From: Synechococcus sp. UW140
Lineage (GTDB): Bacteria; Cyanobacteriota; Cyanobacteriia; PCC-6307; Cyanobiaceae
DNA length: 62,992 nucleotides
Direction: 5' to 3'
Assembly: GCA_945875915.1 (NCBI GenBank)
Contig: CAMCMT010000013.1
Coordinates: 1-62,992 of the forward strand
This document shows, piece by piece, positions 12,605 to 30,479 of this stretch; within the stretch, counting starts at the first letter, position 1; each line of letters starts with the position of its first letter. The notes beneath the pieces were generated by a model. The model did no database searches, was not told where the DNA came from, and saw only the letters and a list, made by a program, of their open reading frames with translations. The translations under genes and the position numbers were made by a program.

Positions 12605-13429
12605 TTGGCCTACGCGCACAGCTCTCTAGGAGCCGCCTCCCTCTGCTTGCTGGTACTTGCTAGCGGCTCGCTGCTTGCCAGCCTGAAAAGAATTGGGAGC
12701 CTCCCGGTCCAGGCCGCCGAAGCCAAGCCGCTATTGGTGGGGGCGGCCAGCAGCCTCAGTGAACCACTTCAGGCCCTGGCCCCTAGCTTCGCGGCCGCTC
12801 AAAAGGTGCCAGTGCCAACCTTTTACTTCGCCGCCTCAGGCTTGTTACAGCAACAGATCCAAACGGGAGCGCCGATCGATGTCTTCGTGTCGGCTAGTGA
12901 GAAGCAGATGGACCGGCTGGAGAAGGCTGGCCTGCTGGTAGCCGGCAGTCGCCGGGTGATCGCTAGCAACCAGCTGGTGCTGGTGGTGCCCTACCGCTCG
13001 CCCCTGCACTCGCTACGGTTCAAGGGACTGGACAGCATGGCCATCCGTCGCATTGCCATCGGCGACAGCAGCGTGCCCGCCGGCAACTATGGACGTCAGA
13101 CCCTGGCCTACTACGGCCTCAGTGAAGCGGTGAAGACTAAATTGGTGCCCATGGGCTCGGTTCGGGCCGTGGCCAACGCCGTAGCCGCAGGCCATGTGGA
13201 TGCTGGCATTGTTTACAAAAGCGATGCCCGCAATGTGCCAAATCTGCGCATTGTGGCGGGCGCCCCCGAAGCCAGCCACGCACCGATTCGCTACAGCGCC
13301 GCCGTGATCACCGCCAGCCGCCAAGCGAAATTAGCCAGCACCTATCTGGGCAGCCTCACCACGGCCCAGGCGAGCCAGCAGTTTCGCCGCTATGGCCTGC
13401 TACCCCTGCCAGCGGCGGCGAAACGATGA
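12605..13429 (+). CDS. modA: Molybdate ABC transporter substrate-binding protein ModA
   Basis: A periplasmic binding protein that captures molybdate for ModBC. From the TTG chosen, a 274-residue precursor starts with a signal peptide (hydrophobic SLGAASLCLLVLASGSLLA) and a likely cleavage site after VQAAEA. The mature part has LLVGAASSLSEPLQALAPSF and YFAASGLLQQQIQTGAPIDV, the oxyanion-binding serines of ModA, plus SSVPAGNYG. An earlier in-frame TTG at 12494 would add 37 residues of poor coding character ahead of the signal peptide and is less likely. The stop overlaps the modBC start as ATGA. Confidence 0.93.
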   Translation: MAYAHSSLGAASLCLLVLASGSLLASLKRIGSLPVQAAEAKPLLVGAASSLSEPLQALAPSFAAAQKVPVPTFYFAASGLLQQQIQTGAPIDVFVSASEKQMDRLEKAGLLVAGSRRVIASNQLVLVVPYRSPLHSLRFKGLDSMAIRRIAIGDSSVPAGNYGRQTLAYYGLSEAVKTKLVPMGSVRAVANAVAAGHVDAGIVYKSDARNVPNLRIVAGAPEASHAPIRYSAAVITASRQAKLASTYLGSLTTAQASQQFRRYGLLPLPAAAKR

Positions 13430-15330
13430 ACGGGGCCAGCCCCGAGCTCTCTCCCCTATGGCTGTCGTTGCGTAGCGCCAGCCTGGCGGTGCTGCTGGTG
13501 GCACCCCTGGGCTTTGTCTGTGCCAGGCGTCTGCGTCAGTTGCGGGGCTGGCAGCGGGGCCTGGCCGAACTGGCGGTGCTGTCGCCCCTGGTGCTGCCGC
13601 CCACGGTGGTGGGCTTCATCCTGCTGCAACTGCTGGGCCGCTACGGGCCGATCGGCGGACTACTCAACCGCTTTGGCTTTGAGATGGTCTTCAGCTGGCA
13701 GGCCACGGTGTTGAGCTCAGTGGTGGCGGCCTTCCCGCTGATGGTGCGCTCCTCCCTAGCGGCCCTGGAGCAGATCGATGGGTCCCTGCCCCAGGTGGCC
13801 CGCAGCCTGGGGGCCAGTGAGGGGCGAATTCTGCGCCAGATCATCCTGCCCCTGGCCATGCCGGGCCTAGTGGCCGGGGTGAGCCTCAGTTTTGCCCGGG
13901 CCCTGGGGGAATTCGGCACCACCTTGATGCTGGCGGGCAACATCCCCGGCCAGACCCAAACCCTGCCCCTGGCAATCTTCGCCGCGGTGGATGCCGGTGA
14001 GGCGGGCCAGGCCTGGTTTTGGACCCTGCTGGTGCTGCTGCTCAATGGCTGCTGCCTGCTGGTGATGCAGCTGTTTGAAATACGAGCCAATCACCGTCCA
14101 CCCGGCCGAAACCGGCTTTGGGGGCTCGGCCGGCACCTGGGCCGCGTGGCCTGGACGCTGCGGCGCCAGGCCAGCCCCCTTGGCAGCCAAGGCACAAGCA
14201 GCAAGAACCACCAAGGGGGCCAAACGGTTCCCTTCTTGCTCGAGGTGGACCTGAATCACCAGCTGGGTCCCTTTGCCCTGCAATTGGCTTTCAGCAGCTC
14301 CAGCCGCAGGCTCGGCATCCTCGGGGCTTCCGGGGCCGGCAAAAGTCAGCTACTGCGTTGCCTGGCCGGGCTAGAAACACCGCAACGGGGTCGGATTGAA
14401 CTCAACGGCCGGGTGCTATTCGACAGCGAACGTAAGATCAACCTGCCGTTGCAAAGGCGGCGCATCGGCCTGGTCGTGCAGCACTACGCCCTGTTTCCCC
14501 ACCTCAATGTGGCGGAAAACGTCGGATTTTCTTTGTCAACGTTGCCACCCGAACAGCGACAAGAACGGGTTAGGCACCAACTCGAGCGGGTAGGGCTTCG
14601 CGAACTGGGCCATCGCTATCCCAGCCAACTCTCCGGTGGCCAACAGCAACGCATCGCCCTGGCCCGGGCCCTGGCCAGCGAACCGGACTTGCTCCTGCTT
14701 GATGAACCCTTCTCCGCCCAGGACACTTATCTGCGCCGTCAGTTACAGCAACAACTCGCCGACCTGCTACAGGTCTGCCAGGTGCCCGCCCTACTCGTAA
14801 CCCACGATCTCGAAGAGGCCTACCGGCTCAGCGACGATCTGCTGGTGATTGACCAGGGGAAAATACTGGCCCATGGGCCCAAACATGAGGTCTTTGACCA
14901 GCCCCAGAACCTGGAGGTGGCACGGCTGAGCGGCTGCAAAAATTTTTCCCGAGTTCGCCCGCTTTCCCCGACCACACTTTGGGCCCTGGATTGGCAGCTA
15001 GAGATCCACTGCCCAGAAGGGATGGATACCGAGATCAGCCATGTGGGCATTCGCGCTAACCATTTTAAACTGGTACCTGCAGATCAGATCCCCCAGCCCC
15101 TGACCAGTAATCAATGGCTGTGCCAATTGATCAAGGCAAGTGAGGGGCCCTTCCAGGTGAGTGCCTATGTGGTGTTAAACGACCACCCGGGCCCCAACCA
15201 GCAGCCAATCCAGGTGGAAGTGCGCCGCGCTGAATGGCAGCAGCTTTGCGCTCGTCGCCAACCCTGGGTGCTGCAGTTACCAGTGAAGCAGCTGATGCTG
15301 CTGCATTGCAGCGCAGGGAAGACCCGGTAG
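13426..15330 (+). CDS. modBC: Molybdate ABC transporter permease-ATPase fusion (ModB-ModC)
   Basis: A single 634-residue chain that joins the molybdate channel and its ATPase. Residues 1 to about 215 form a ModB-type permease with five or six membrane segments and the ModB signature [17 protein letters not shown]. After a basic linker, residues 265 to about 500 form ModC, with Walker [12 protein letters not shown], signature [15 protein letters not shown], Walker [13 protein letters not shown] and the switch THDLEEA. The C-terminal 130 residues resemble a regulatory TOBE/Mop region. It is translationally coupled to modA by ATGA. ModBC fusions are known in cyanobacteria. The two halves remain in one clean frame. 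Confidence 0.95.
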
Positions 15331-17280: not shown

Positions 17281-17341
17281 CGGGCCCCGGTGGCCTTGAT
17301 CGAATGGATTGCTCCTGCCCCGGCCCCCGGCCGCCGCCCCG

Positions 17342-19558
17342 ATGCCGCCGGTCGCCAACTCTGAATCTGCCTCCGCCCCTGGGGCCCGACCTGGGCCCGC
17401 CCGGGCCCAATGTCCCTACTGCGGCGTCGGGTGCGGCCTGGAACTCAAACCAAGCGATCCGGCCCCCGAACCCGGGCCCGCCAGCTGGAGCGTGCGGGGC
17501 GACCGCCAGCACCCCTCCTCCCTGGGCCAGGTGTGCATTAAGGGGGCCACGGTGGCCGAAACCCTCAACCACAACCGCCTGGTCCAACCCCAATGGCGCG
17601 AGCGCCTCGACCAACCCTTTCGCCCGATCGACTGGGAGCAGGCCTTCGCGATTCTGATCAACCAAATTCAACACACCCTCGCCAGCTCGGGCCCGTCGGG
17701 CTTGGCCATGTATGGCTCGGGCCAGTTCCTCACCGAGGATTACTACGTCGCCAACAAACTGTTCAAAGGGGCCCTGGGCAGCAACAACTTCGATGCCAAT
17801 TCCCGGCTCTGCATGAGTTCGGCGGTGTCGGGATACGCCCGCAGCCTGGGCTCCGATGGTCCGCCCTGCTGTTACGACGATCTCGATCTGGCCGATCTGG
17901 TGGTGCTGATTGGCACCAACACGGCCGACTGCCATCCGGTGCTGTTTCAGCGCCTGCTCAAACGCAAACGCAAGACCAAAGAAGCCCTGCAAATCGTCGT
18001 GGTCGATCCCCGCGCCACCGCCACCAGTGACGCCGCCGACCTGCACCTGGCGATTCGCCCTGGCACCGATTTGGCCTTGCTGCATGGCATCGGCCATCTG
18101 CTGCTGCGCCAGGGGGCCATCGATCGCGCCTTCGTTGATCAGCACACGCAAGGATTTGCTGCCCTGGACACGCTTTGGCAGGCCTGGACGCCGGAGCGAG
18201 TCAGCATCCTGTGTGGCATTGCGATCGCCCAACTGGAGCAGCTGGCCCAGCTCTGGGCGGGCAGCCAGGCCGTGCTCAGCCTCTGGTCGATGGGGGTGAA
18301 CCAGAGCCGCGAAGGCACCGCCACCGTGGGCGGCATCATCAACCTGCACCTGGTCAGCGGCCAAATCGCCCGCCCGGGGACCGGGCCCTTTTCGCTCACC
18401 GGCCAGCCCAATGCCATGGGCGGCCGCGAAGCCGGCGGCCTGGCCCAGCTGCTGCCGGGCTATCGCGCCATCGCCAACCCGGCGCACCGGGCCGAAGTGG
18501 AGCGCCACTGGGGCTTGGCCCCCGGCGCGATCGCCGCCGAGCCGGGGCTGGCGGTGTGGCAGCAGGTGGAGGCGATGGAGCGGGGCGAAATCGGCCTCTG
18601 GTGGGTGGCGGCCACCAACCCGCTGGTGAGCCTGCCTTGGCTGGATCGGGTGCGGGCCGCCGCCCAAAACTGCCCCCTAGTGGTGCTTAGCGAGGCCTAC
18701 GCCGGCACGGAAACGGCAGCGGTGGCCCACCTGCTGTTGCCGGCGGCCCAGTGGAGCGAAAAGGCCGGGGTGATGACCAATTCGGAGCGGCGCATCACCC
18801 TTTGCCCAGCCTTTCGCCAGGCCCCAGGGGAGGCCCGCGCTGACTGGGAGATTTTCGCCGAGCTAGGCCGGCGGCTGGGCTTTGTCAGCCAGTTCGGCTT
18901 CGACTCGGCGGCAGCGGTTTTTCAGGAGTTCAGCGCCCTCACGGCAGGCCGCATCTGCGATCTAAGCGGCATGAGCCATGGCCTCCTGGCCGATCACGGA
19001 CCCCAGCAATGGCCCTTCCCCCAGGGCTGCGCCCCGGGCGCCGGCCAGGCCCGTCTCTATGGCGATCGCCACTTTCCCACCCCCTCGGGTCGGGCCCAGC
19101 TGGTCGCCGAGCAACCCCTGGGCCTGGCCGAACCACCCTGCGACCAGTTCCCCCTCGTGCTCACGGTGGGCCGCTACCTGGGCCACTGGCACACGATGAC
19201 TCGCACGGCCCATGTCGAGCGGATCCGGCAGCGCCACCCGGTGCCCCTGCTGGAGGTGAATCCCGCCGATGCAGCACACCATGGCCTGGTCGATGGCGCC
19301 CTCGGCCAAGTGCGCTCCAGGCGCGGGGCCGTATCGGCCCAGGTGCTGGTCACCGATCGCATCCGGCCCGGCACGGTGTTTTTACCGATGCATTGGGGCG
19401 CCAGCCAGGAGCAGGCCTGCGAAGCCAATCGGCTCATGCACGAACTCGGCTGTCCAATCTCAAAACAGCCGGAACTCAAGGCTGCAGCGGTGACCCTGGA
19501 GCCCTTGACCCCGGAACCCGTGATCCAGGAAACCCCAACCCTCAAAGCCCTGGTCTAA
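17342..19558 (+). CDS. narB: Ferredoxin-nitrate reductase NarB
   Basis: Reduces nitrate to nitrite in the cytoplasm with electrons from ferredoxin. The 738-residue molybdoenzyme binds one [4Fe-4S] cluster through CPYCGVGCGLE near residue 25 and GQVCIKG near 65, and bis-MGD through DMSO-reductase-family segments such as CMSSAVSG, GTNTADCHP, GQPNAMGGREAGG and the C-terminal MHWGASQEQ. I chose the ATG giving MPPVANSESA; a TTG 33 bases upstream is possible. It diverges from mobA and ends 8 bp before the convergent regulator gene. NarM, the cofactors and nitrate uptake are all encoded nearby. Confidence 0.97.
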   Translation: MPPVANSESASAPGARPGPARAQCPYCGVGCGLELKPSDPAPEPGPASWSVRGDRQHPSSLGQVCIKGATVAETLNHNRLVQPQWRERLDQPFRPIDWEQAFAILINQIQHTLASSGPSGLAMYGSGQFLTEDYYVANKLFKGALGSNNFDANSRLCMSSAVSGYARSLGSDGPPCCYDDLDLADLVVLIGTNTADCHPVLFQRLLKRKRKTKEALQIVVVDPRATATSDAADLHLAIRPGTDLALLHGIGHLLLRQGAIDRAFVDQHTQGFAALDTLWQAWTPERVSILCGIAIAQLEQLAQLWAGSQAVLSLWSMGVNQSREGTATVGGIINLHLVSGQIARPGTGPFSLTGQPNAMGGREAGGLAQLLPGYRAIANPAHRAEVERHWGLAPGAIAAEPGLAVWQQVEAMERGEIGLWWVAATNPLVSLPWLDRVRAAAQNCPLVVLSEAYAGTETAAVAHLLLPAAQWSEKAGVMTNSERRITLCPAFRQAPGEARADWEIFAELGRRLGFVSQFGFDSAAAVFQEFSALTAGRICDLSGMSHGLLADHGPQQWPFPQGCAPGAGQARLYGDRHFPTPSGRAQLVAEQPLGLAEPPCDQFPLVLTVGRYLGHWHTMTRTAHVERIRQRHPVPLLEVNPADAAHHGLVDGALGQVRSRRGAVSAQVLVTDRIRPGTVFLPMHWGASQEQACEANRLMHELGCPISKQPELKAAAVTLEPLTPEPVIQETPTLKALV

Positions 19559-19566
19559 AAGGGCCT

Positions 19567-20190
19567 TCAGGTCTGCATCAACTTCGGCGCTAGCCGCAGG
19601 CCCCCACCAGCACAAGTCTGGGGACTAATCAGGCCTGCCTTGCGCCACTTGGAGAGTTGGCGGGTCACGGTCACCCGGGTGTGGCCACTGAGTTCGGCCA
19701 GCTGGGCATGGGTGAGCAGCATGGGCAGTTCATACCATTCACCGCAACGGCGCCCCAGCCGCTCCACCAGCAGCTGCATTAGGGCGGCGATGCGCTGTTC
19801 CGCCTCCCCCAGATGGCGAATCATCAATAGGGCCACTGTCCAATCATTGAGACTATTCGACCCTTCCGAGGGCAAGCGTTCCTCGTCATCCTTGAGCTCC
19901 ACGGGGAAAATGGCTTCTAGGTGAAGGCGCGAACGGCGCAGTAAATCAAGATTCAGCTGATCGCCCGCTTGGAGGAAACCCAAGGTGATGGCAGGGGCAT
20001 CGAGGGGCTCTAGCTCCAGCCCAGAAATGGCCACCCGTAGCAAGCCCTGGGCCACATTGAGACAGGAACTGCGTTGCAGCAAAGCAGCATCGAGAACCAT
20101 CGTATGGCCGACGGCAATCTGCAAGCTCAGGGCCGGGGTGAGGGACGGCGCTAGGGATAGGGCTTCTGTCTCAAGCATCATCATGGGCAT
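19567..20190 (-). CDS. Crp/Fnr-type transcriptional regulator in the nrt operon
   Basis: A 207-residue protein whose C-terminal 75 residues form a Crp-type winged helix-turn-helix (LTHAQLAELSGHTRVTVTRQ, then KWRKAGLI). The N-terminal part reads as a weakly conserved beta-roll and lacks an obvious cyclic nucleotide phosphate cassette, so the ligand, if any, is unknown. It is not clearly NtcA itself. The start (MPMMMLE) lies inside the last codons of nrtD, so it is translationally coupled and made with the nitrate transporter. Candidate targets are the narB, nrtA and nirA sites that share one motif; that link is inference. Confidence 0.8.
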   Translation of the reverse strand: MPMMMLETEALSLAPSLTPALSLQIAVGHTMVLDAALLQRSSCLNVAQGLLRVAISGLELEPLDAPAITLGFLQAGDQLNLDLLRRSRLHLEAIFPVELKDDEERLPSEGSNSLNDWTVALLMIRHLGEAEQRIAALMQLLVERLGRRCGEWYELPMLLTHAQLAELSGHTRVTVTRQLSKWRKAGLISPQTCAGGGLRLAPKLMQT

Positions 20191-21019
20191 GGCGCCGGAA
20201 TAGAAAATCAAGGGCGTGGTTGCGCAGCTCGCCATAGCGGGGATCGGCCTGAATCGCCTCAAAGCAGCGGGGGCGCTCAAAGGGCACCGGCACAATTTCG
20301 CCAATGGTGGCCGCTGGGCCATTGGTCATCATCACCACCCGATCGGCCAGGAAGAGGGCTTCATCAATGTCGTGGGTGATCATCAAGACGGTGGGCTTCT
20401 GTTCCCGCCAGATGGTCAGCAGTTCTTCCTGCAGCTCTTCTTTCGTGATCGCATCAAGGGCCCCGAAGGGTTCATCGAGCACCAGCACTTGGGGACTAAC
20501 GGCAAAGGCGCGGGCGATGGCGACCCGCTGACGCATGCCACCGGAAATCTCGTCGGGTCGCTTCGAGCGGGCCTCGATCAGACCCACCATCTCCAGGTGG
20601 TGTTCGACCACCGCGGCCCGCGCCTGCACCGGCAGCTCCGGCCGGGCCGAGCGCACGGCTAGATCGACGTTCTGCTCAACGGTCTGCCAGGGCAACAGGG
20701 AATAGTTCTGAAACACCACCATCCGATCGGGGCCAGGGCGGCCAATCGGTTCTCCCCGCAACAACACCTCTCCGCTTGAAGGCTTCAAGAAGCCCGAAAC
20801 CATATTGAGCATGGTCGATTTGCCGCAACCGGAATGGCCGATCACACAGACAAACTCGGATTGTTTGACCTGCAGATTGATCTGGCTAAGGGCTTCAAAG
20901 GGGCCGCGTTGGGTTGGAAAAACCTGGCCCACCTGCCTGAATTCCAAGAAGGGCTGGTTGCCTGCTTGACCATCGGCACCAGGGACAGGGGCGACGTCTG
21001 GGCTGATCTGGGTAGACAT
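20171..21019 (-). CDS. nrtD: Nitrate/nitrite ABC transporter ATP-binding protein NrtD
   Basis: One of the two ATPases of the nitrate importer. The 282-residue protein has Walker A GHSGCGKSTMLNM near residue 66, the Q-loop VFQNYSLLPW, signature ISGGMRQRVAIARA and Walker B VLVLDEPFGALD. Unlike NrtC it has no substrate-binding-like domain. The ATG chosen is one base after the nrtC stop; an ORF extension 60 bases upstream would overlap nrtC. The stop region overlaps the start of the Crp-type regulator gene. Confidence 0.95.
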   Translation of the reverse strand: MSTQISPDVAPVPGADGQAGNQPFLEFRQVGQVFPTQRGPFEALSQINLQVKQSEFVCVIGHSGCGKSTMLNMVSGFLKPSSGEVLLRGEPIGRPGPDRMVVFQNYSLLPWQTVEQNVDLAVRSARPELPVQARAAVVEHHLEMVGLIEARSKRPDEISGGMRQRVAIARAFAVSPQVLVLDEPFGALDAITKEELQEELLTIWREQKPTVLMITHDIDEALFLADRVVMMTNGPAATIGEIVPVPFERPRCFEAIQADPRYGELRNHALDFLFRRHAHDDA

Positions 21020-21020
21020 C

Positions 21021-23066
21021 TCAGGGGGAAGACAGGGAACGGTCGGCCGAGGCGCTATCGGGCAGCAGGAGACTCGCAACCACGGGCTGGCCCGCGAAGG
21101 GAAGGGACTTCAGGTAGGCAAGCGGGTCGTCCTGGTCAAAACGGAGGCCGTCAGCGAGGGCAAACGGTTTGCGGTCGGTGGGGAGGGCAGGGAAGCCGGC
21201 CCGCTCCAAGGCCGCCGCACAGAGGTCGCTGCGGTAAACGCGGCTGAGCAGCTCCACCCGGTTGCTCGGAAAGGGGCTCCAACCCCAGCGACTGAATTGG
21301 CTGAGAATCCAGCAACCCTCGACGGGATTGGCGCTATGGGCCCGATCGGAGTGGTAGCGGTTGAGGGGCAGGCGATCCCCGGCCGGTTCGCCAGTGCCGA
21401 GATCGAACTGGCGCTGCAAGGCCACGGCCGTAGCCAGCCCCAGCCACTGGGGCTGGCTCAACAAACCCACCAGCGCCTCCCGTTGGCCGCCGTCGTCGCA
21501 GAGCTGGCCGGCCCGCATTAAGGCTGCACAGAAGGCCAGCAGGCTGTCCTGGTGACTCTCGGCCCAGCCCTCGTGGCAGGTGAGCACCTTTTCAGGATGG
21601 CCACTCCAGATGTCGAGATCGGTGGCCAGCCCATAGGCAAGACCCGCCTCCACGGCCTGGGCAACCCGGTAACGGCCAGCGATGAAGCCATCGAGCTCGC
21701 CATTCAGCAGGGCCGATTGCATCGCCAATGGCGAAAGGGTGATCCAGCTCACCTGGCGATCGGGATCCATGCCAGAGCTCGCCAACCAATGGCGCAGCAA
21801 CAGCTCCTGCATGCTGCCCATCTGGCCAATACCCAGCCTCAGGGGGGCCGCTTGGGCCTGGAGCAAGGCAGCTAGTTCGCGGCCATTGCGCACCCCCGCA
21901 TCGAGGTAGCGGCGGGCCATGCAGAGGGCATTGCCATTGCGGGTGACGGTCATCGGCGTGACCGCCGGCCAGGCTGGCTTGCCGTGGAGGCCGAGGGTCA
22001 GGGCGAGGGGCGTGGTTGCCGATGTAATCGCCCCATCGAGGTCGCCGGCCTTAAGTTTTTCCTCCAGTTGTTGCCAACGGCTGAAGACAATCGGCACCAC
22101 GTTGAGGTTCTGCTCGCGGAAGAAGCCGCGATCCAGGGCCAAGGCCAAGGGGGCAATATCAAGCCCTGGCAAATAGCCCAAGCGGATCGTGGTCGGCGCA
22201 GCAGAAACCGGGGCAGCGTTGCCTTGGCGAGCGCCAGTGCCAGCCCCTGCAAGCCTGGGTGCCTTGGCTTCGCCCCGGCGCTGCCTGAGGCGGCGTTGTT
22301 GTTGCAGAAAGCCAATCAGTTCGCCGCGCAGGGCGTAATAGGCGGGGTGCTCCATCACCTCCAGGCGTTGGCGCGGCCGGGCCAAGGGCACCTTGAGAAT
22401 CTGGCCGATGCCGGCCTCCGGGCCGTTGGTGAGCATCACAACCCGATCGGAGAGCAGCAGGGCCTCATCCACATCGTGGGTGACCATCACCGTGGTGACC
22501 CCAGCCTCCTGGCAGATCTGCATCAGTTGCTGCTGGAGATTGCCCCGGGTGAGGGCATCCAAGGCACCAAAAGGCTCATCCAGCAGCAACAGCTTGGGCC
22601 GGATCGAGAGGGCCCGGGCTATGGCAACCCGCTGCTTCATGCCACCGGAGAGTTCGGCCGGGCGTTTATCCGCCGCTGGGCTGAGTCCCACCAGCTTGAT
22701 GTTGGCCTCCACAACCGCGGAGCGTTCCTCCCGGCTGGCATCCGCCATGACGGCATCCACAGCCAGGGCAATGTTCTGGCGAACGCTTTGCCAGGGCAGC
22801 AACGAGTAGTTCTGGAACACCACCATGCGATCAGGACCCGGATCGGTGATCTGGCGGCCGTTCATCAAGATGCCGCCCTGACTGGCCTGGGCCAGGCCCG
22901 CCATCAGGTTGAGCAGGGTAGATTTACCACAGCCGGAGTGGCCGATCAGTGAAACAAATTCACCGTCTTTGATCTCCAGATCAATATCCTTAATGGCAAT
23001 ATAGTTGCTGCCATTGGGCAAAGCAAAACTCTGGGTAACATTATCAACGGTCAAAAGAGCTGTCAT
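21021..23066 (-). CDS. nrtC: Nitrate ABC transporter ATPase with NrtA-like regulatory domain, NrtC
   Basis: A 681-residue two-part protein. Residues 1 to about 260 are an ABC ATPase with GHSGCGKSTLLNLM, signature LSGGMKQRVAIARALS and [13 protein letters not shown] basic linker follows, and residues about 300-670 resemble the NrtA solute-binding fold (IRLGYLPGLDIAPLALALD). In Synechococcus elongatus this domain is known to mediate ammonium inhibition of uptake, so post-translational nitrogen control is likely here too. The start is one base after the nrtB stop, with the same tight spacing at nrtD, so nrtBCD are co-translated. Confidence 0.96.
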   Translation of the reverse strand: MTALLTVDNVTQSFALPNGSNYIAIKDIDLEIKDGEFVSLIGHSGCGKSTLLNLMAGLAQASQGGILMNGRQITDPGPDRMVVFQNYSLLPWQSVRQNIALAVDAVMADASREERSAVVEANIKLVGLSPAADKRPAELSGGMKQRVAIARALSIRPKLLLLDEPFGALDALTRGNLQQQLMQICQEAGVTTVMVTHDVDEALLLSDRVVMLTNGPEAGIGQILKVPLARPRQRLEVMEHPAYYALRGELIGFLQQQRRLRQRRGEAKAPRLAGAGTGARQGNAAPVSAAPTTIRLGYLPGLDIAPLALALDRGFFREQNLNVVPIVFSRWQQLEEKLKAGDLDGAITSATTPLALTLGLHGKPAWPAVTPMTVTRNGNALCMARRYLDAGVRNGRELAALLQAQAAPLRLGIGQMGSMQELLLRHWLASSGMDPDRQVSWITLSPLAMQSALLNGELDGFIAGRYRVAQAVEAGLAYGLATDLDIWSGHPEKVLTCHEGWAESHQDSLLAFCAALMRAGQLCDDGGQREALVGLLSQPQWLGLATAVALQRQFDLGTGEPAGDRLPLNRYHSDRAHSANPVEGCWILSQFSRWGWSPFPSNRVELLSRVYRSDLCAAALERAGFPALPTDRKPFALADGLRFDQDDPLAYLKSLPFAGQPVVASLLLPDSASADRSLSSP

Positions 23067-23067
23067 T

Positions 23068-23910
23068 TCAACGCCTCTTTCCACTAACTCGATCACCAAC
23101 CATGCCCACAAGGCGATCAAGGATCAAGCCCACAATACCAACGTAAAAAATGGCGAGAATGATTTGACTGGTGCTGGTATCGCCGCCGGCGTTATAGGCA
23201 TCCCAGATAAAGAAGCCAATGCCACCATCGGCCTTGAGCATCTCGGCGGCCACAATTGCCAACCAGGCTAGGCCGACGGAAATGCGCAGGCCCGTGAACA
23301 CATAGGGAGCCGTGGCCGGCATTAAAATGTCGCGGAGATAGCTGATCTTGCCGAGCCGCAGCACCCGGGCAACATTAATGTAATCCTGGGGGATTTCGCG
23401 AATGCCCACCGCCGTATTAATGATGATCGGCCAGATCGCTGTGATAAAGATCACAAAGATGGAGGCCGGGTCTGCCTGCTGCATCAGCAGCAGGGAGATC
23501 GGCAACCAGGCCAAAGGGGGCACGGTGCGCAGCACCTGAATCAGGGGATCAAAGCCCCGCCGCAGGAAATCATTGAGGCCAATGGCCAATCCAGCCGCCA
23601 CACCCACCACGGCGGCCAAGCTGTAGCCAATCGCGACCCGTTGCAGCGAAATCCAAATTTGAAGCACTAGGCCTTTGGCCGTGCCCCCATCGTCGTAGAA
23701 GGGTTGGCTGATATAGGGAGTCCAGGTTTGGCTTATCACCTGAATCGGACCCGGAAAACCATCAGGATTGGGCAGGCAAAGCAATTGCCAAAGGGCCAGG
23801 GTCAACCCAATGCAAACCACCGGGGCCTTGATCTGGCGTGCCAGAGGCGATCGCAACCAGGCAGCACGGGATCGCCGCGTCCTGCGGCTCGGGTCAAGGG
23901 TAGTGGTCAT
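23068..23910 (-). CDS. nrtB: Nitrate ABC transporter permease NrtB
   Basis: A 280-residue inner-membrane channel subunit with about six hydrophobic segments. The ABC-permease EAA-type loop reads near residue 195 as DILMPATAPYVFTGLRISVG. The basic N-terminus (RRTRRSRAAWLRS) should be cytoplasmic. The protein matches the NrtB/SsuC/TauC permease family in length. It follows nrtA after 71 bp and precedes nrtC by one base. It is predicted to work as a homodimer with NrtC and NrtD, fed by NrtA. Confidence 0.95.
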   Translation of the reverse strand: MTTTLDPSRRTRRSRAAWLRSPLARQIKAPVVCIGLTLALWQLLCLPNPDGFPGPIQVISQTWTPYISQPFYDDGGTAKGLVLQIWISLQRVAIGYSLAAVVGVAAGLAIGLNDFLRRGFDPLIQVLRTVPPLAWLPISLLLMQQADPASIFVIFITAIWPIIINTAVGIREIPQDYINVARVLRLGKISYLRDILMPATAPYVFTGLRISVGLAWLAIVAAEMLKADGGIGFFIWDAYNAGGDTSTSQIILAIFYVGIVGLILDRLVGMVGDRVSGKRR

Positions 23911-23981: not shown

Positions 23982-25286
23982 TTACTTCATCGCCTTGATC
24001 TTGAGGCTATTGAGATAGGCCGAAGGATTGCTGGGGTCAAACTTGACGCCATCAAAGAACTTCTCCACACCGCGGCTATCACTGGTTGGAATATTGGTAT
24101 AGCCATTGGCCTTAGCAGCCTTCCGCCACAGATCCGAACGGTTCACTTTGTCAACGAGGGCCTTGGCATTGGTGCCCTTAGGCAGATAACCCCAGCGCAT
24201 ATCTTCGGTCACAAACCAGATGTCATGGCTCTTATAGGGGAAGGAGGCATTGGTGGCCCAGAACTTCATCTTAAAGCGGCTGTTCTTCACCACCTTGCCG
24301 GTGCCATAGTCAATCGTTCCCTGCAGGCGGGGCAGCAGGTCCTCGACCGAAGCCTTCACATACTTATCTTCGGAGAGCAGTTTGGCAAGCTCCGGGGTGT
24401 TAGCCGGGTCATCGGCCCACTTCTGGGCCTGTTGAACGGCCATCAGCAGCCGCAGGGCCGAATTGGGGTTCTTCTTGACCCAATCAGCCCGCATGGCGAA
24501 GGCTTTTTCGGGATGGTCGTTCCACAGCTCACCGGTGACCAGGGCTGTGTAGCCCAGCTTCTTATTCACTAGGCGCTCATTCCAAGGCTCACCCACGCAG
24601 AAGGCATCCATGGTGCCGGATTGCATGTTGGCGACCATCTGGGGGGGCGGAATCACCACCAGGCTGGTGTCCTTATTGGGATCGACGCCGTTGGCGGCCA
24701 GCCAGTAGCGCATCCAGAGGTCGTGGGTGCCGCCAGGGAAGGTGACAGCCGCCTTGAACTTACGGCCGGAGGCGCCGCCCTTGGCGATGTCTTTTGCGAG
24801 GGAAAGATCCTTCAGGGTGAACTGCTCATCAAGGAATTGCTTGGAGAGTGAGATCGCCTGGCCGTTAACATTAAGACGGGCCAAGATATTCATCGGCACC
24901 GGCTGCTTGCTCTTGCTGATCGCCCCTGTGGTGAGCAAGTAGGCCATCGGAGATAGCAGGTGGGCACCATCAATGCCGCCGCCGCCACTGCCCAGCTCCA
25001 GGTTGTCACGGGTCACCGCCCAGGACGTTTGCTTCTTCAGCTCCACGCCGTCCATGCCTTGCTTGGCGAAGAAACCCTTCTCCTTCGCCACAATCAGGGG
25101 CGCCGCATCGGTGAGGGCGATGAAGCCCAGGGTGGCGGAGCTGGTTTCAGGCTTACCGGGGGCCGCCGGGGCCGCCTGGGCCGGCAGGCCGCCCAGCAGG
25201 GTTGAGAGCGTGCCCAATTGCAGGGCAACGCCCACGCCGGCGGCGCAGGACGACAACAAAAAGGAGCGGCGCTTGAAGGTCGACAT
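23982..25286 (-). CDS. nrtA: Nitrate/nitrite-binding lipoprotein NrtA
   Basis: The periplasmic nitrate receptor of the importer, first gene of the nrt operon. The 434-residue precursor starts MSTFKRRSFLLSSCAAG: twin arginines followed by a hydrophobic run suggest Tat export, and LSSC fits a lipobox, so the mature protein would be anchored by Cys14. A long proline/alanine linker leads into the binding domain (LGFIALTDAAPLIVAKEKGFF). Known cyanobacterial NrtA proteins are lipoproteins of this length. It is preceded by a leader of roughly 240 bases with hairpins and a candidate regulator site. Confidence 0.96.
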   Translation of the reverse strand: MSTFKRRSFLLSSCAAGVGVALQLGTLSTLLGGLPAQAAPAAPGKPETSSATLGFIALTDAAPLIVAKEKGFFAKQGMDGVELKKQTSWAVTRDNLELGSGGGGIDGAHLLSPMAYLLTTGAISKSKQPVPMNILARLNVNGQAISLSKQFLDEQFTLKDLSLAKDIAKGGASGRKFKAAVTFPGGTHDLWMRYWLAANGVDPNKDTSLVVIPPPQMVANMQSGTMDAFCVGEPWNERLVNKKLGYTALVTGELWNDHPEKAFAMRADWVKKNPNSALRLLMAVQQAQKWADDPANTPELAKLLSEDKYVKASVEDLLPRLQGTIDYGTGKVVKNSRFKMKFWATNASFPYKSHDIWFVTEDMRWGYLPKGTNAKALVDKVNRSDLWRKAAKANGYTNIPTSDSRGVEKFFDGVKFDPSNPSAYLNSLKIKAMK

Positions 25287-25626: not shown

Positions 25627-26142
25627 CTAGGACGCCGCCACCCCAGCCGTCACGCCAAACTCCGCCAGGGCCAGGGGCAAATTGCGATGTTCATGGCCCC
25701 CCTGGCTCAACTTCACCAAGGCAAAGCGTTGTAATTCGCTCAGACCGGCCCAGGTTGGGTTACTGAGCAGGACGCCCTGATCGCTACAGGCCCGGTGGAC
25801 CGCCGGCGGTGTTTGCTGCTGCTGCTGCCAACTCTCCTGGCAGGCGATTGGCAGGGTGCGGGCCACTCCGGCGGTTTGCTGGGCGGTGCGCGCCAGTAAC
25901 CAGAGGTGCAGCTCCGCCACGGCAGCGGACCCATCCGGCCAAGCCAGCAGCAGCTGCCGTTCGGCCGCCGTCAGCCCGTTCCAGTGCACCAATTTGAGCT
26001 TGACCCCGGCAAGATCGAGCTTGCGCCGCACCGCCATCGGGATGCAGCGCAGGTCCGCCGTGAACTCGGCTTCGAAGCCAAAACAGGTCTGGGCGTTTCT
26101 AAAGCCCTCGCCCTCGGAACCTGAAACACCATGGGTGGTCAT
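25627..26142 (-). CDS. narM: Nitrate reductase-associated protein NarM
   Basis: A cyanobacterial protein needed for active NarB, thought to act in assembly or activation of the molybdoenzyme; the mechanism is not established. The 171-residue product has the family hallmark CFGFEAEFTADLRCIPMAVR near residues 20-40, followed by KLDLAGVKLKLVHWNGL. A glutamine-rich stretch near residue 110 and about 20 C-terminal residues look poorly conserved. The start overlaps the TrpD2-like gene stop as ATGA, so the two are co-translated. It lies upstream of nrtA on the same strand, separated by the nrtA control region. Confidence 0.93.
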   Translation of the reverse strand: MTTHGVSGSEGEGFRNAQTCFGFEAEFTADLRCIPMAVRRKLDLAGVKLKLVHWNGLTAAERQLLLAWPDGSAAVAELHLWLLARTAQQTAGVARTLPIACQESWQQQQQTPPAVHRACSDQGVLLSNPTWAGLSELQRFALVKLSQGGHEHRNLPLALAEFGVTAGVAAS

Positions 26143-27233
26143 GGCATGGCGGCCAGCAGGGCCAGGCCGGCGCGGGCCTTAAGCAGGGCTTCGCTTTGGT
26201 CGAGGGCGGCGACAAACGTGTCGTGGTCGCCGGCGAACCAGAGATAGGCGGCCACATTCCAGCGCAGGGCATCGGCCAAGGGTCCGGCGCCGGCCAGGGC
26301 CTCGCCGGCCTGGCGGCGCCAACAATCCAGGTCGCTCCAGCGCACCTCCTCGGACTGGATGCCGTGTTCGCGGGGATGGAGCAGGATCCGCTCGCTGACG
26401 CCATGGCGCAGGCGGGCCGTAATGCCGGCCCGGGTGGTGGGCAGGTCGGTGGAGCCCTCCAGGCCCTTAACCGTGAGCACATCGGTTTCGGCCGCGGCCG
26501 TGAGCGCCTCCCAGGCCCGGGCTTCGGTGGGGGGATGGACAAAGCCACTAACCAGCAGATGGTCCCCCTGGTGGGGAGTCCAAAGCAACTCCAGGCTGGC
26601 GACCGGAGGCCGCTTGCCGATCGCATCGCGCACCGGCAGCAGTCGCTCCGCCGCCGGGAAGTGGTCCGGTTGGTGGGTGAGGGCCAGGCCATGGCGGTCG
26701 AGCCGGTCCTGCACCTGGGCCAAGGCCAAACCAACCCAGTTGATCCCCAGGGCCGCGAACAGTTCGGCGAGGGTCACCCCGTATTTCACCGGCATCGGTC
26801 CGCCGCCATGGAGCACCACCGGCAGGCCCGCCGCGGCCAGCACCAGGGCCACCAGGGGCAACAGGGGGGCCGTGCGGCTGCGGCCGTCGTAGGGCACGCC
26901 GAAACAGAGGGCCCGTCGGCCCGGGGTCGCCAAGGTTGGGCCATGGTGGCGATAGCTCTCGAGCATTCCGGTGAGCTCGAGCGGTAAGGGACGGCGGATG
27001 CGGTGCGCAATCAGGAAGGCCCCGAGCTGGGCCTCACTGGCCTGGCCCGCCAGCATCAGGTCCATCGCCTCGCGGGCTTCCTGGCGCGAGAGCCCGGTGC
27101 TGGTGTGTTCGCCGCTGCCAACCTTGCCCAGCAAGTCGCGAAAGCGCAGGGCCTCCGAACTGAGGCTGCCCCCCCGACCTGGGGACAGGGGTCCTGGCAG
27201 GGGCTCGGGGATGGGTGTAGCGGCCGCACCCAT
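26139..27233 (-). CDS. TrpD2-like anthranilate phosphoribosyltransferase family protein
   Basis: A 364-residue protein with the overall fold order of TrpD: a small helical domain (EAREAMDLMLAGQASEAQLG, AFLIAHRIR), then the large alpha/beta domain. The canonical TrpD PRPP loop GTGGD is replaced by GVPYDGRSRTAPL, and the KTFN-like anthranilate region is not recognisable, so tryptophan synthesis is unlikely. It resembles the TrpD2/YbiB branch, whose members are of uncertain function. The ATGA overlap with narM and divergence from nirA over 76 bp tie it to nitrate reduction by context only. Confidence 0.8.
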   Translation of the reverse strand: MGAAATPIPEPLPGPLSPGRGGSLSSEALRFRDLLGKVGSGEHTSTGLSRQEAREAMDLMLAGQASEAQLGAFLIAHRIRRPLPLELTGMLESYRHHGPTLATPGRRALCFGVPYDGRSRTAPLLPLVALVLAAAGLPVVLHGGGPMPVKYGVTLAELFAALGINWVGLALAQVQDRLDRHGLALTHQPDHFPAAERLLPVRDAIGKRPPVASLELLWTPHQGDHLLVSGFVHPPTEARAWEALTAAAETDVLTVKGLEGSTDLPTTRAGITARLRHGVSERILLHPREHGIQSEEVRWSDLDCWRRQAGEALAGAGPLADALRWNVAAYLWFAGDHDTFVAALDQSEALLKARAGLALLAAMP

Positions 27234-27238
27234 TAGTT

Positions 27239-27252
27239 GTAGTGGTTGCGAC
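27239..27252 (+). promoter_or_regulatory. Candidate NtcA/Crp-type site upstream of nirA
   Basis: GTAGTGGTTGCGAC fits GTAN8GAC, one base off the NtcA consensus, and lies 58 bp before the nirA ATG in the divergent spacer. The position 22 bases downstream reads CAAATT, a poor -10. It matches the reverse complement of the narB-upstream site at 12 of 14 bases. Confidence 0.45.
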
Positions 27253-27309
27253 AGGAGCGCCCCAGTCCGCTGGCCAAATTGTCCATCCGGTTGGCGTTCT
27301 AGTTGCTTG

Positions 27310-28893
27310 ATGGTATCCGCTGCATCGCAGGAATTTCAGGCCGATGGGGTGGAACCAGGCCAAGCAGGAGCTAAGTCTGCGACCAAATTGAGCAAGGTTG
27401 AACAGGCAAAAGCAAGGTTCTGCGGCCTCGATCTCGAGCCCCGCCTCGCCGACCTCGCCGCCCAAGGTTGGCAGTCCCTTGACGAAGAAACCCTGACCAT
27501 CCATCTCAAATGGCTGGGCATCTTTTTTAGGCCCGTAACCCCCGGGCGTTTCATGGTGCGGCTGCGGCTGCCCAATGGGGTGATCCGCGCCGACCAGCTA
27601 AACGTGCTGGCCGATGCCCTGGATCGTTGCGGCGAGGAGGGCTCCGCCGATATCACCACCCGCCAGAACCTGCAAATGCGCGGGTTGCTCTTGGAAGACA
27701 TGGCGCCCTTACTTGTGGCCATGGAGGCGGTAGGCCTAACCAGCCGCCAATCCGGCCACGACAATCCCCGCAACATCACCGGCAATCCCCTGGCTGGTAT
27801 CGATCCGGAGGAAGTGATCGACACCCGGCCCCTGGTGGCCGCCATCCAGGCCCGACTGCTGGGACCGGAGGGCCCGCGCAACTTACCCCGCAAGTTCAAT
27901 GTGGCCGTGGGCGGAGCCGCCGACAGCTTCCTCCTCCATAACGACCTGGCCTTTCTGCCCTGCCACCGCGAGGGGGAGCTGGGCTTCACGGTGATGGTGG
28001 GAGGCTTTTTTTCGGCCCAACGCAATGAACTGGCCGTGCCCCTGGGCCTATGGCTGCGAACCGAGCATCTAGCCGATTTCAGCCTGGTGGTGTTGCGCCA
28101 TTTCGAACGCCACGGCAATCGCGCCGCCCGCACCAAAAGCCGGCTCTTTTATCTAATCGAGCAACTGGGCCTGGAGACCTACCGGGGGGAGCTGGTGGCT
28201 GAATTGGCAGCCCTTAGCGCCGAAGTCCTGCCCCACGACGGCAGCCATCTGGTGACCCGGGCGCCCCGCTCCGGGCTGGGGGTGCAGGCCCAGAAGCAGC
28301 CCGGCTTGCACTGGGTCGGCCTCAGCGTGCCCATGGGCCGGCTCGATGCGGACGCCATGGTCGAGCTGGCCCGCCTGGCCAAAATCTATGGCCAGGCGGA
28401 GCTGCGCTTCACCGAAGCCCAGAACGTGCTGATCCCGGGGGTGGCCACGGACCAGGTGGGGGCGTTGCTGGACGAACCGCTGCTGCAACGCCTGCGGCCC
28501 GACCCCGGCCCCCTCGAGGCCGAAGCCGTGAGTTGCACCGGCAACCGCTACTGCAGTTTTGCCCTGATTCCCACCAAAACCACCGCCCAGGCGGTGGTCG
28601 AGGAGCTGGAGCGGCGGCTGGAGTTGCCCCAGGCGGTCCGCAGCCACTGGACCGGCTGTCCGAATGCCTGCGGCCAGCCCTACATGGGCGACATCGGCCT
28701 CATGGGCGCCAAGACCCGCCTAGACGGCCAGATGGTGGAAGCCGCCAAGATTTTCCTGGGGGGATCGATGGGAGCCGAGCCCCAGTTGGCGGCCCTGCAC
28801 GGCACGGCCGTTCCCCTGAGCGCCCTGCCTGATGTGCTGGAAACCCTGCTGGTGGAGCGTTTCGGAGCCCGGCGGCGCAGCCAAACCCCCTGA
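27310..28893 (+). CDS. nirA: Ferredoxin-nitrite reductase NirA
   Basis: Six-electron reduction of nitrite to ammonium using ferredoxin, siroheme and a [4Fe-4S] cluster. The 527-residue protein has both halves of the sulfite/nitrite reductase repeat. The cluster/siroheme cysteines are CTGNRYC near residue 410 and WTGCPNACGQPYMGDIG near 450. The frame is open about 110 codons further upstream, but that stretch overlaps the TrpD2-like gene and is unconserved; the ATG at 27310 gives normal family length. Genes for siroheme synthesis follow on the same strand. Confidence 0.97.
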   Translation: MVSAASQEFQADGVEPGQAGAKSATKLSKVEQAKARFCGLDLEPRLADLAAQGWQSLDEETLTIHLKWLGIFFRPVTPGRFMVRLRLPNGVIRADQLNVLADALDRCGEEGSADITTRQNLQMRGLLLEDMAPLLVAMEAVGLTSRQSGHDNPRNITGNPLAGIDPEEVIDTRPLVAAIQARLLGPEGPRNLPRKFNVAVGGAADSFLLHNDLAFLPCHREGELGFTVMVGGFFSAQRNELAVPLGLWLRTEHLADFSLVVLRHFERHGNRAARTKSRLFYLIEQLGLETYRGELVAELAALSAEVLPHDGSHLVTRAPRSGLGVQAQKQPGLHWVGLSVPMGRLDADAMVELARLAKIYGQAELRFTEAQNVLIPGVATDQVGALLDEPLLQRLRPDPGPLEAEAVSCTGNRYCSFALIPTKTTAQAVVEELERRLELPQAVRSHWTGCPNACGQPYMGDIGLMGAKTRLDGQMVEAAKIFLGGSMGAEPQLAALHGTAVPLSALPDVLETLLVERFGARRRSQTP

Positions 28894-29042
28894 AGCCCCA
28901 ACCGCTTCCGGCCGGCCCCCGATTCCCCTCGCTCTCTTGCTGATCCGTGTCCAAGCCGCACCTGCCGCCGGCACCAACCGGTTCAACGCGCGGCCAGGTC
29001 GCTGCAACTGCCAGGGTGGATCCAGCTGCCCGGTGGCTGACC

Positions 29043-30479
29043 ATGCTCCGCCTGGGATCTGAATCGTCTGACCCGCCGCCCTTGCCGCCCGAGGGCAGCC
29101 TGGAGCGCTGGCAGCTGCTCCAGGAGTTGGGACGCAGCACCAGCGACCTCGGCCCCTGGCTGGCTGGCCTGGCCTCGGGCAACCTGGCCCCCGAGGTGGA
29201 TCTGCTCGTCACCCTGGCCGGCCGGGTGGACCCGGGAGGCGCCGAACGCCTGCTGCTCCTGGCGGCCGATTTTGGCCCGCCACTGCTGCTCCAGGCCCTA
29301 GGGCAGGCCCTACCGGCCCTGCCCGCCGCCACCCGGACGGTGTGGCTGGAGCCCCTGCTGAGCCTGGCTCCGGACGGGCCGGGCTGGCTGGCCCTGCTGG
29401 GGGCCTTCCAAGACCCCCGCGTGGCTGAACGACTGCGGCAGGCCCTGGACCACTCCCTGGACGCCCAACTGCTGGAGCGACTCGGCCATCAACGGCAGGG
29501 CGAGGATGGCGCCCTACTCCTCACAATCAGCCTGGCGCCCGGCCCCCGATCCCTGCGCCATGGGGCCTTGGAAGGGCTGGCCCTGGGCCTGTCGGCCTGG
29601 CCCCTGGAGCCCCTGCAATCCGGCCTGGCGGCCCTGGCGGAAGATCTCGATCCCGCCCTAGCCGCCAAGGCGGTGGATCTGCTGGCGCGCTTACCCCAGG
29701 GCCAACGCCAGTTGCGGCGTCTGGCCCAACGCCCCCTGGCGGCCCCGATGCAAGGCCGGCTGCAGCGGCGCCTACGGCGCTCCCCCCTGGTGCTGGTGGT
29801 GCATGGCCGCAGTGGTGGCCTGATCCCTGAGGAGCTGCAGGATTGGGCCCGGGAACTGGAGCAGCGGCGCGGCGCCCCGGTCCTCCTGCAAGCCCTCAGC
29901 AGCGGCGCCCCCGACCCAGGCCCAGGCTTCTGGGCGGGAGCCCAGCGGGCTGGATCAGTGGGCCTGGTGCCCTTACTGCTCCTGCCTGGGGGCCACGTGC
30001 GCAAGGACGTGCCGGCGATCGCCCGCGCCTGGCGCAGCCGCCTGGGCCCGGGCCCGGCGATCGCGCTCCAGCGCTATCCCTTCCTGGGCTCCTGGCCGGC
30101 CTGGCAGCACCTACTGGCTGGGCAACTGGCGGATCGCCAGGCGTTTGGGGCGATCCACTGGCTCCACCACCCGCTCGACGGCCCCCTGGCCCAGCGCTAT
30201 CTGGACCACCTGGGCGCCGTGCTGGGCAGTCCTGGACTGGCCACTCCATACACTGCACAACTGGCGGATCTGGTGTTGCCTGTGGATCGCCCCGAACCGG
30301 GAAGCGTGGCTGTGCTGCCCCTGACCCTGGCCAGTAACCGGCTCACCGACACGCTTGAAGCCGGCCAAAGGCTGGCTCTCCCCCCGGGCCAAGCCCGCCC
30401 CCCCCAGCCCCTTCCTCCCCTTTTGCAGCAGCCCGCCATCCGCCAGTTCCTGCTCACGGCGCTTGGGGCCTTGCCATGA
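29043..30479 (+). CDS. CbiX/SirB-type sirohydrochlorin chelatase with long N-terminal extension
   Basis: Likely inserts iron into sirohydrochlorin to make siroheme for NirA. Of 478 residues, the last 220 or so carry a CbiX-like chelatase domain with the metal-site histidines in VVHGRSGG near residue 250 and LLLPGGHVRKDVPAIA near 315. The N-terminal 230 residues are leucine-rich helical repeats, perhaps HEAT-like, a layout I infer from periodicity. An upstream GTG at 28947 would add 32 residues. The stop overlaps the cobA start (ATGA), and nirA lies just upstream, so the three genes form a siroheme/nitrite unit. Cobalt chelation cannot be excluded. Confidence 0.82.
   Translation: MLRLGSESSDPPPLPPEGSLERWQLLQELGRSTSDLGPWLAGLASGNLAPEVDLLVTLAGRVDPGGAERLLLLAADFGPPLLLQALGQALPALPAATRTVWLEPLLSLAPDGPGWLALLGAFQDPRVAERLRQALDHSLDAQLLERLGHQRQGEDGALLLTISLAPGPRSLRHGALEGLALGLSAWPLEPLQSGLAALAEDLDPALAAKAVDLLARLPQGQRQLRRLAQRPLAAPMQGRLQRRLRRSPLVLVVHGRSGGLIPEELQDWARELEQRRGAPVLLQALSSGAPDPGPGFWAGAQRAGSVGLVPLLLLPGGHVRKDVPAIARAWRSRLGPGPAIALQRYPFLGSWPAWQHLLAGQLADRQAFGAIHWLHHPLDGPLAQRYLDHLGAVLGSPGLATPYTAQLADLVLPVDRPEPGSVAVLPLTLASNRLTDTLEAGQRLALPPGQARPPQPLPPLLQQPAIRQFLLTALGALP

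Follow-up and report, generated by a model that had tools for sequence, protein, structure and literature searches.

The window, as the whole stretch of 62,992 nucleotides analysed here is called, contains a picocyanobacterial nitrate cluster. The gene under study lies within this cluster, beside narM and nirA:

17309-19558, plus strand: narB, molybdopterin oxidoreductase, with Pfam Molybdopterin, Molydop_binding and Fe4S4 domains (name taken from context)
20171-23120, minus strand: nrtC and nrtD, ATPases, nrtC with an additional binding domain (assigned from Pfam and position)
23068-23910, minus strand: nrtB, nitrate ABC transporter permease (TIGR01183, 322.6 bits, cut-off 209)
23982-25286, minus strand: nrtA-like binding protein (PF13379), downstream of narM
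25627-26142, minus strand: narM, nitrate reductase maturation protein (TIGR02664, 144.9 bits, cut-off 110)
26139-27233, minus strand: most likely a cnaT orthologue (NF005635/PRK07394), a complete open reading frame of 364 amino acids with the TrpD fold
27310-28893, plus strand, divergent from cnaT: nirA, ferredoxin-nitrite reductase (NF007125, 629 bits, cut-off 594)

The gene diverges from nirA, with 76 bp between the two ATG codons used, and its stop is overlapped by the start of narM over 4 bp, in line with the divergence from nirA and the co-translation with narM given in an earlier note on this DNA; nrtA, nrtB, nrtC and nrtD come after narM. Because the family profile leaves the first 29 residues of the product unmatched, translation may really begin further in. 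Its closest named relatives by protein are Synechococcus sp. Baikal-G1 (97% identity) and Synechococcus sp. UW140 (86%). We take the frame at 17309-19558 to be nitrate reductase narB; the NCBIfam equivalogs all scored below their cut-offs, the top nitrate model being NasC at 463 against 1100 bits. The nrtA-like protein matched no model in an NCBIfam search at 1e-20. Elsewhere in the window, a 510-residue protein between nirA and sumT (28947-30479) carries a CbiX domain at residues 295-385 only, its long N-terminal half having no assignment, and is perhaps a siroheme chelatase serving nirA. A single frame at 13426-15330, with moeA- and moaA-like genes nearby, fuses ABC permease and ATPase domains and looks like a fused molybdate transporter for the nitrate reductase cofactor.

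The product of the gene is a member of the family described by NCBIfam model NF005635/PRK07394, which carries the name "hypothetical protein" only. With 459 bits it clears the cut-off of 287, and five further members score 407-555 bits. It stays below the cut-offs of the YbiB equivalog NF006005 (122.5 of 185 bits) and of TrpD (TIGR01245, 74.5 of 199 bits).

CnaT is a known but poorly understood regulator. It has reportedly been recognised as a nitrate regulator since 2003, when Frias is said to have given Anabaena cnaT, in the title of a paper, as required for expression of the nir operon; it is not known to have been given a settled mechanism in the later work of Frias and Flores. The neighbourhood of the gene was compared in 81 loci, comprising the window and a single locus apiece from 80 genomes, which mostly represent one genus each, over stretches of mostly 8 kb either side, nine of the 80 being shortened by contig ends. 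Of the 66 loci outside the window's family, 50 have an NtcB-like LysR gene (with Pfam HTH_1 and LysR_substrate domains in the one representative checked) on the same strand no more than 1 kb away, and across all 81 loci, the window's family included, one lies within 6 kb in 51. The 16 of 66 loci outside the family with no NtcB gene within 1 kb count against a simple picture, as does the limited linkage to nitrate genes: the stretches compared contain nirA in 31 of 81 cases, at least one gene of the nir, nar or nrtA kinds in 35, and one of those or ntcB in 66.

In five loci (L062, L063, L088, L114 and L125), the order is nirA< nirB> ntcB> cnaT>, where "nirB" is a HEAT-repeat protein named by position. 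PMC7699953 places the Nostoc 7120 nir operon at alr0607-alr0612, nirB at all0605 and ntcB, a LysR regulator, at all0602. Because the recurrent order fits this numbering, all0601 would be the gene after ntcB. Our literature search met the name cnaT for this gene in one paper, PMC9430850. There all0601 is cited under that name, and the cnaT of Synechococcus WH7803 is placed in a nitrate region and said to act positively on expression of the nirA operon. Since the NtcB-adjacent place matches all0601 and all0601 is named cnaT in print, the window gene is most likely a cnaT orthologue; this assignment draws on gene order and printed naming, with all0601 compared by position, and the equation of the NF005635 model with CnaT is our own identification from gene order. 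The earlier note had rightly linked the gene to nitrate or nitrite and had overlooked cnaT with its published role. An "anthranilate phosphoribosyltransferase" is listed among "unrelated genes" flanking nrtABCD in PMC10161378, and we take it to be cnaT because strain CCY 0621 of that study has cnaT beside nrtA (L045). The letters "cnaT" in PMC7744380 and PMC11156908 stand for other things.

The family model exceeds its cut-off in 145 of 339 cyanobacterial genomes and in one of 14 control genomes, which we take to be Synechococcus elongatus. Three genomes outside the window's class (G004, G021 and G032) match at about 1e-33, below the cut-off, and are not counted as carriers; a tblastn search of plasmids and phages at 1e-5 gave no cnaT match. 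Co-occurrence was counted over the genomes of the class, at least 166 of the 339, as both genes, cnaT only, the other gene only and neither. The counts are 139/6/5/at least 16 with nirA (Fisher 1.7e-13), 134/11/5/at least 16 with narB (2.5e-11) and 133/12/7/at least 14 with narM (8.3e-9), all with kinship ignored and the genomes phylogenetically non-independent. Further genomes of the class without cnaT may exist, and those with none of the genes would change no count but the fourth. Weak narB matches in two genomes outside the class (G021 and G029) were excluded.

The co-occurrence of cnaT with nirA, narB and narM, which the earlier note had suggested checking, is thus clear but not strict, with exceptions in both directions. 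Among the 145 carriers, 11 lack narB and 6 lack nirA, and the gene therefore occurs apart from nitrate reduction, which the earlier note had named as counting against its proposal, in a minority only; one of these genomes, G147, has a broken narM only, at a contig end, which may be an assembly gap. Five genomes (G046, G081, G108, G159 and G217) carry cnaT without nirA, narB and narM. Specifically, G046 and G081 belong to a family other than the window's and keep NtcB, and departures from the conserved columns number 0 in L075 (G046), 1 in L086 (G081), 4 in L132 (G159) and 6 in L127 (G108), some of them conservative. The gene does not look decayed in these copies and may have a role beyond nitrate.

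In the other direction, five genomes (G155, G203, G253, G288 and G278) hold nirA, narB and narM without an intact cnaT, which shows that a genome can retain the reductases in the absence of CnaT. The first four belong to one genus, have genomes of 1.6-1.7 Mb and contain no cnaT at E <= 1e-30; none was seen in the nitrate cluster of G155 itself. In G278 (L165, 7969-8779), residues 1-178 of ntcB and residues 259-346 of cnaT remain side by side, which looks like a natural loss of both regulators through one deletion.

Several copies of cnaT lie near sumT-like genes or occur as second copies. In the small genomes G108 (L127), G159 (L132) and G217 (L168), the neighbour of cnaT is a sumT-like gene of opposite orientation. 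A second paralogue occurs about 10 kb from the main copy in G298 (C1:2394463-2395488) and G308 (L169 1159-2157), the latter 54% identical to the window copy and beside sumT/cbiX-like matches, and Cyanobium Cruz CV13-4-11 (L059) has a similar 54% copy near a sumT-like gene.

NtcB was sought in the 339 genomes with the L076 LysR protein as single query at E <= 1e-60. Matches were found in 113 genomes: every one of the 111 genomes that carry cnaT and belong to other families than the window's, plus G121 and G278 with its truncated gene. The window's own family, the picocyanobacteria, is represented by 48 genomes; these gave no match with this one query at that threshold, and 34 of them carry cnaT. 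Because of this, CnaT in picocyanobacteria would act without NtcB, unless a much diverged NtcB was missed, and its role in Anabaena may not carry over to the window, in whose lineage no NtcB was found. At the end of the run of nrt genes, the window also encodes a 251-residue Crp-type HTH protein (19567-20322) that matches the PtrA model weakly (39.6 of 300 bits) and might be a nitrate regulator particular to a lineage that lacks NtcB.

The spacer between cnaT and nirA holds two candidate control elements:

27239-27252: NtcA-like site GTAGTGGTTGCGAC, one mismatch to GTAN8TAC
27275-27280, plus strand: -10-like CAAATT, 22 bp after the NtcA-like site toward nirA, one mismatch to TAN3T

The NtcA-like site sits 5 bp ahead of the first ATG in the cnaT frame. 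A site with one mismatch is present in the cnaT-nirA spacer of all 19 loci in which nirA could be anchored, the window included, out of 25 tried. Shuffled spacers contain such a site in 21-61% of cases per locus, which predicts 8.6 sites among the 19 loci. The six loci without a nirA anchor (L034, L041, L042, L043, L047 and L136) were not counted, and the first four of them also have a one-mismatch site. The recurrent forms are GTAGYGRTTGCRAC in 9 of 19 loci and GTARCAGTGACGAC in 7 of 19, plus three near variants, and GTAGYGRTTGCRAC includes, or is within one base of, the site GTAGCGATTGCAAC predicted upstream of WH7803 nrtP in PMC9430850. Because the loci are related, the recurrence of this putative NtcA site is support rather than proof.

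CnaT adopts the whole TrpD fold. An AF2 model of the window protein, built with 58 sequences, has a pLDDT of 92.2 and a pTM of 0.89, and among the best 50 rows of a structure search it matches TrpD and YbiB entries at Z 31.4-34.9. The top rows are TrpD (Z 34.9, over nearly the whole length), and YbiB, at Z 31.9, has the highest identity among those 50 rows (26%); it is also the best single-sequence PDB match, in keeping with the TrpD2/YbiB kinship that the earlier note had recognised. Four features of the former ligand-binding segments are located as follows:

26862-26900, minus strand: rewritten PRPP loop GVPYDGRSRTAPL, residues 112-124, aligned with TrpD GTGGD
26784-26786, minus strand: codon of invariant K150, which aligns with YbiB R123
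26628-26630, minus strand: codon of invariant R202, which aligns with the first Arg of TrpD LRRxLGVRT
26442-26468, minus strand: KGLEGSTDL, residues 256-264, at the place of the TrpD DE metal motif

The earlier note had reported a replaced GTGGD loop in an otherwise kept fold. Both statements hold, but the loop is not the sole change. With the ligand motifs of TrpD taken from PMC9835598, the window protein reads GVPYDGR in place of GTGGD and GLEGSTDL at the DE site, with D changed to T and E to D. Across the family, GTGGD becomes GxPYDGR, HGNRxxSS mostly HGGxxMPxK and the metal-binding DE mostly (S/C/T)D. Because the residues that hold PRPP and metal are lost, CnaT is very unlikely to be a phosphoribosyltransferase. 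The rewritten loop is a family rule, with P114 and D116 in all of 103 sequences and G117 in 99%. Conservation was scored over 103 CnaT and 15 TrpD-type rows, with L035, L038, L053, L095 and L111 (partial or duplicate) and L060 left out; L038 and L053 were left out of a further 106-row set.

The segments that are catalytic in TrpD remain under constraint in CnaT. Specifically, conservation of 95% or more is reached by 22 of their 48 columns, compared with 44 of 258 in the rest of the protein (p 3.5e-5), and at 19 switch columns the residues have been exchanged between TrpD and CnaT and not degraded. Because the changed segments are more conserved than the rest, the pocket looks like a new binding function and not decay. 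R202 and R208 of the RxxxGxR segment and N326 are kept from TrpD. K150, R202, K207 and R208 are present in all sequences, K256 in 99% and R120 in 95%, and R118 is invariant in the 58-row alignment; an anion or nucleic acid might be held by these seven basic residues. By our own equation, R202 is taken as the anthranilate-binding Arg, R193 of the M. tuberculosis enzyme in PMC9835598. The overall pI was tried as a test of DNA binding and proved uninformative, both values being about 6.6.

These features suggest that the window gene is cnaT, a positive regulator of the nirA genes that works without PRPP, and we hold this reading with good, though not full, confidence. Family membership, fold, loss of motifs, linkage, co-occurrence and the recurrent site are direct observations, and the positive regulatory role is carried over from what is printed for Nostoc/Anabaena. 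That the window copy plays the same role without NtcB, in a non-enzymatic mode, is our inference; the sequence favours non-PRPP binding over catalysis. Nitrogen shortage would activate NtcA, which would bind the site shared by cnaT and nirA, as the site itself and the published work suggest, and both genes would then be transcribed. Facing nirA across this site, cnaT could be switched together with it when nitrogen is short. Once its rebuilt cleft is occupied by a ligand or nucleic acid, CnaT would boost nirA expression further; its positive role follows the Nostoc literature, and the part of the cleft is proposed. As a non-enzymatic co-activator, it would bind a small anionic ligand or nucleic acid and help NtcA, and NtcB where present, to raise nirA transcription. 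Its target in the boosting step may be DNA, NtcA, PII/PipX or a signal that it makes. The five genomes that keep the gene without nirA, narB and narM stand against this reading as a full account and point to a further role.

A bolder extension is that CnaT is a sensor derived from an enzyme. Since the pocket keeps the putative anthranilate-holding Arg and gains invariant basic residues, it might read a small anion, such as nitrite or a metabolite of nitrogen status, and in picocyanobacteria, with no NtcB detected, CnaT might provide the sole nitrate/nitrite response of nirA through the shared NtcA site. We regard this combination as a long shot, somewhat below the enzymatic alternative considered below.

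CnaT may alternatively act as a nucleic-acid binder of the TrpD2/YbiB type, its basic groove binding DNA or RNA at the nirA promoter or transcript. This is a finer version of the same regulatory reading, and its odds overlap with those given above. YbiB is the best single-sequence PDB match, at E 4.9e-21 against 2e-14 for the best TrpD, and heads the best 50 structural rows by identity. According to PMC10123104, the conserved Arg92 and Arg123 mark the basic groove of YbiB; R123 aligns with the invariant K150, and R92 with S119, between R118 and R120. TrpD2 proteins, according to PMC9835598, have no PRPP motif and bind DNA. However, the window protein is below the YbiB equivalog cut-off, the family profile is nearer to a TrpD than to YbiB (112 vs 96 bits), the L066 protein scores higher against TrpD than against YbiB, and TrpD heads the structural list. 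In a tree of 29 CnaT, 13 TrpD (recovered from 14 loci tried) and one YbiB sequence, CnaT forms one clade (support 0.885) and TrpD another (0.995), and the single YbiB, which the tree cannot place, is about equally far from both, at median distances of 4.07 from CnaT and 4.02 from TrpD. The binding by YbiB also appears sequence-independent in PMC10123104, which would be odd for a specific activator. We therefore entertain this version tentatively, as a possibility with the balance against it.

The rebuilt pocket could also house a new enzyme, in which the kept Arg and the new basic residues bind another substrate, phosphorylated or carboxylated, so that nitrogen status is signalled by what the enzyme makes or by how that product is turned over. 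The strong constraint on the pocket, its 19 switched columns and the retention of R202 and R208 would suit such an activity, and 16 of the 81 loci have an inorganic pyrophosphatase gene within 6 kb of cnaT, as might be expected if the reaction set pyrophosphate free, although it is mostly on the other strand and may be there by chance. The metal-binding DE has mostly become (S/C/T)D, the PRPP loop is replaced, and the recurrent neighbours that were identified, part of the neighbour clusters, include no obvious pathway partner. We judge a catalytic role unlikely.

Linkage to narM bears on a role in maturation of nitrate or nitrite reductase, which the earlier note had proposed together with a fixed pairing of the two genes. 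The pairing holds in some picocyanobacteria: narM was detected in 11 of 28 named close loci, and in 9 of the 28 it is the very next gene after cnaT in the same orientation, as it also is in the window and in L136. It directly follows cnaT in none of the 66 loci outside the window's family. The 28 named loci represent 27 genomes, L038 and L060 being pieces of one assembly, and large negative gaps between cnaT and narM are artefacts of choosing the longest frame and no real overlaps. The overlap with narM within the window's subgroup speaks for maturation, and the lack of a directly following narM outside the family speaks against it, as do G155, G203, G253 and G288, which have nirA, narB and narM without cnaT, and G278, which retains a 3' remnant only; the proposal is highly improbable.

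The least credible alternative, a second working anthranilate phosphoribosyltransferase, has the TrpD fold and the published label of PMC10161378 (if the entry there is the same gene) in its favour and can practically be set aside, because the score is far below the TrpD cut-off, the PRPP, ribose and metal residues are replaced, and a separate TrpD is present in the window's own genome (365 bits, with GTGG, KHGNRS and DE intact) and over cut-off in 12 of 12 other genomes tested, 10 of them cnaT carriers.

Other genes recur around cnaT. In 9 of 15 loci of the window's family, cnaT is followed by an MFS transporter, a polyphosphate kinase (both by Pfam) and a sigma factor. In the window, Pfam places the MFS transporter at 7836-9089, the polyphosphate kinase at 5571-7706 and the sigma factor at 4355-5395, the nearest of them 17 kb past cnaT on the same strand with nitrate genes between. 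In 7 of 81 loci (L061, L072, L096, L103, L115, L118 and one more; cluster 20), the co-oriented gene after cnaT encodes a MobA-like NTP transferase (Pfam), at a median gap of 106 bp, a possible tie to the molybdenum cofactor. Many loci, among them L067, L068, L069, L079, L083, L119 and L125, share a run of three genes that lies downstream of cnaT and is encoded on the other strand: first a metallo-beta-lactamase-like gene, then aspartate decarboxylase, then inorganic pyrophosphatase.

Taken as cnaT, a regulator of nirA without PRPP chemistry, the gene raises several points of wider interest. The literature search, with most subscription papers beyond its reach, found no published link between CnaT and TrpD2/YbiB. 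Against the literature consulted, the new elements are the TrpD2-like PRPP-less pocket under apparent constraint, cnaT without a detected NtcB in all picocyanobacterial carriers tested, natural genomes with the reductases minus an intact cnaT, and the recurrent NtcA-like site common to nirA. A PRPP-less TrpD fold with a constrained pocket makes ligand binding at that pocket a direct question, and a lineage with cnaT minus a detected NtcB is a setting in which NtcB cannot confuse the effects of CnaT. The identification also bears on annotation, since the family model reads "hypothetical protein" and PMC10161378 has "anthranilate phosphoribosyltransferase" among "unrelated genes".

CnaT resembles three known systems to different degrees. 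It shares with TrpD the whole fold, R202 and R208, and N326, and differs from it in the replacement of GTGGD, HGNRxxSS and DE and in a score of 74.5 of 199 bits. It shares with YbiB/TrpD2 of E. coli the TrpD fold without the PRPP motif, and basic residues both where the loop used to be and at the K150/R123 position, but it falls below the cut-off of the YbiB family, and DNA binding by CnaT is putative. It is likest the CnaT of Anabaena/Nostoc sp. PCC 7120 (all0601) and of WH7803, through the place of its relatives' copies beside ntcB and its own in a nitrate cluster. Unlike the Anabaena gene, the window copy is found in a genome without a detected NtcB, faces nirA directly and overlaps narM.
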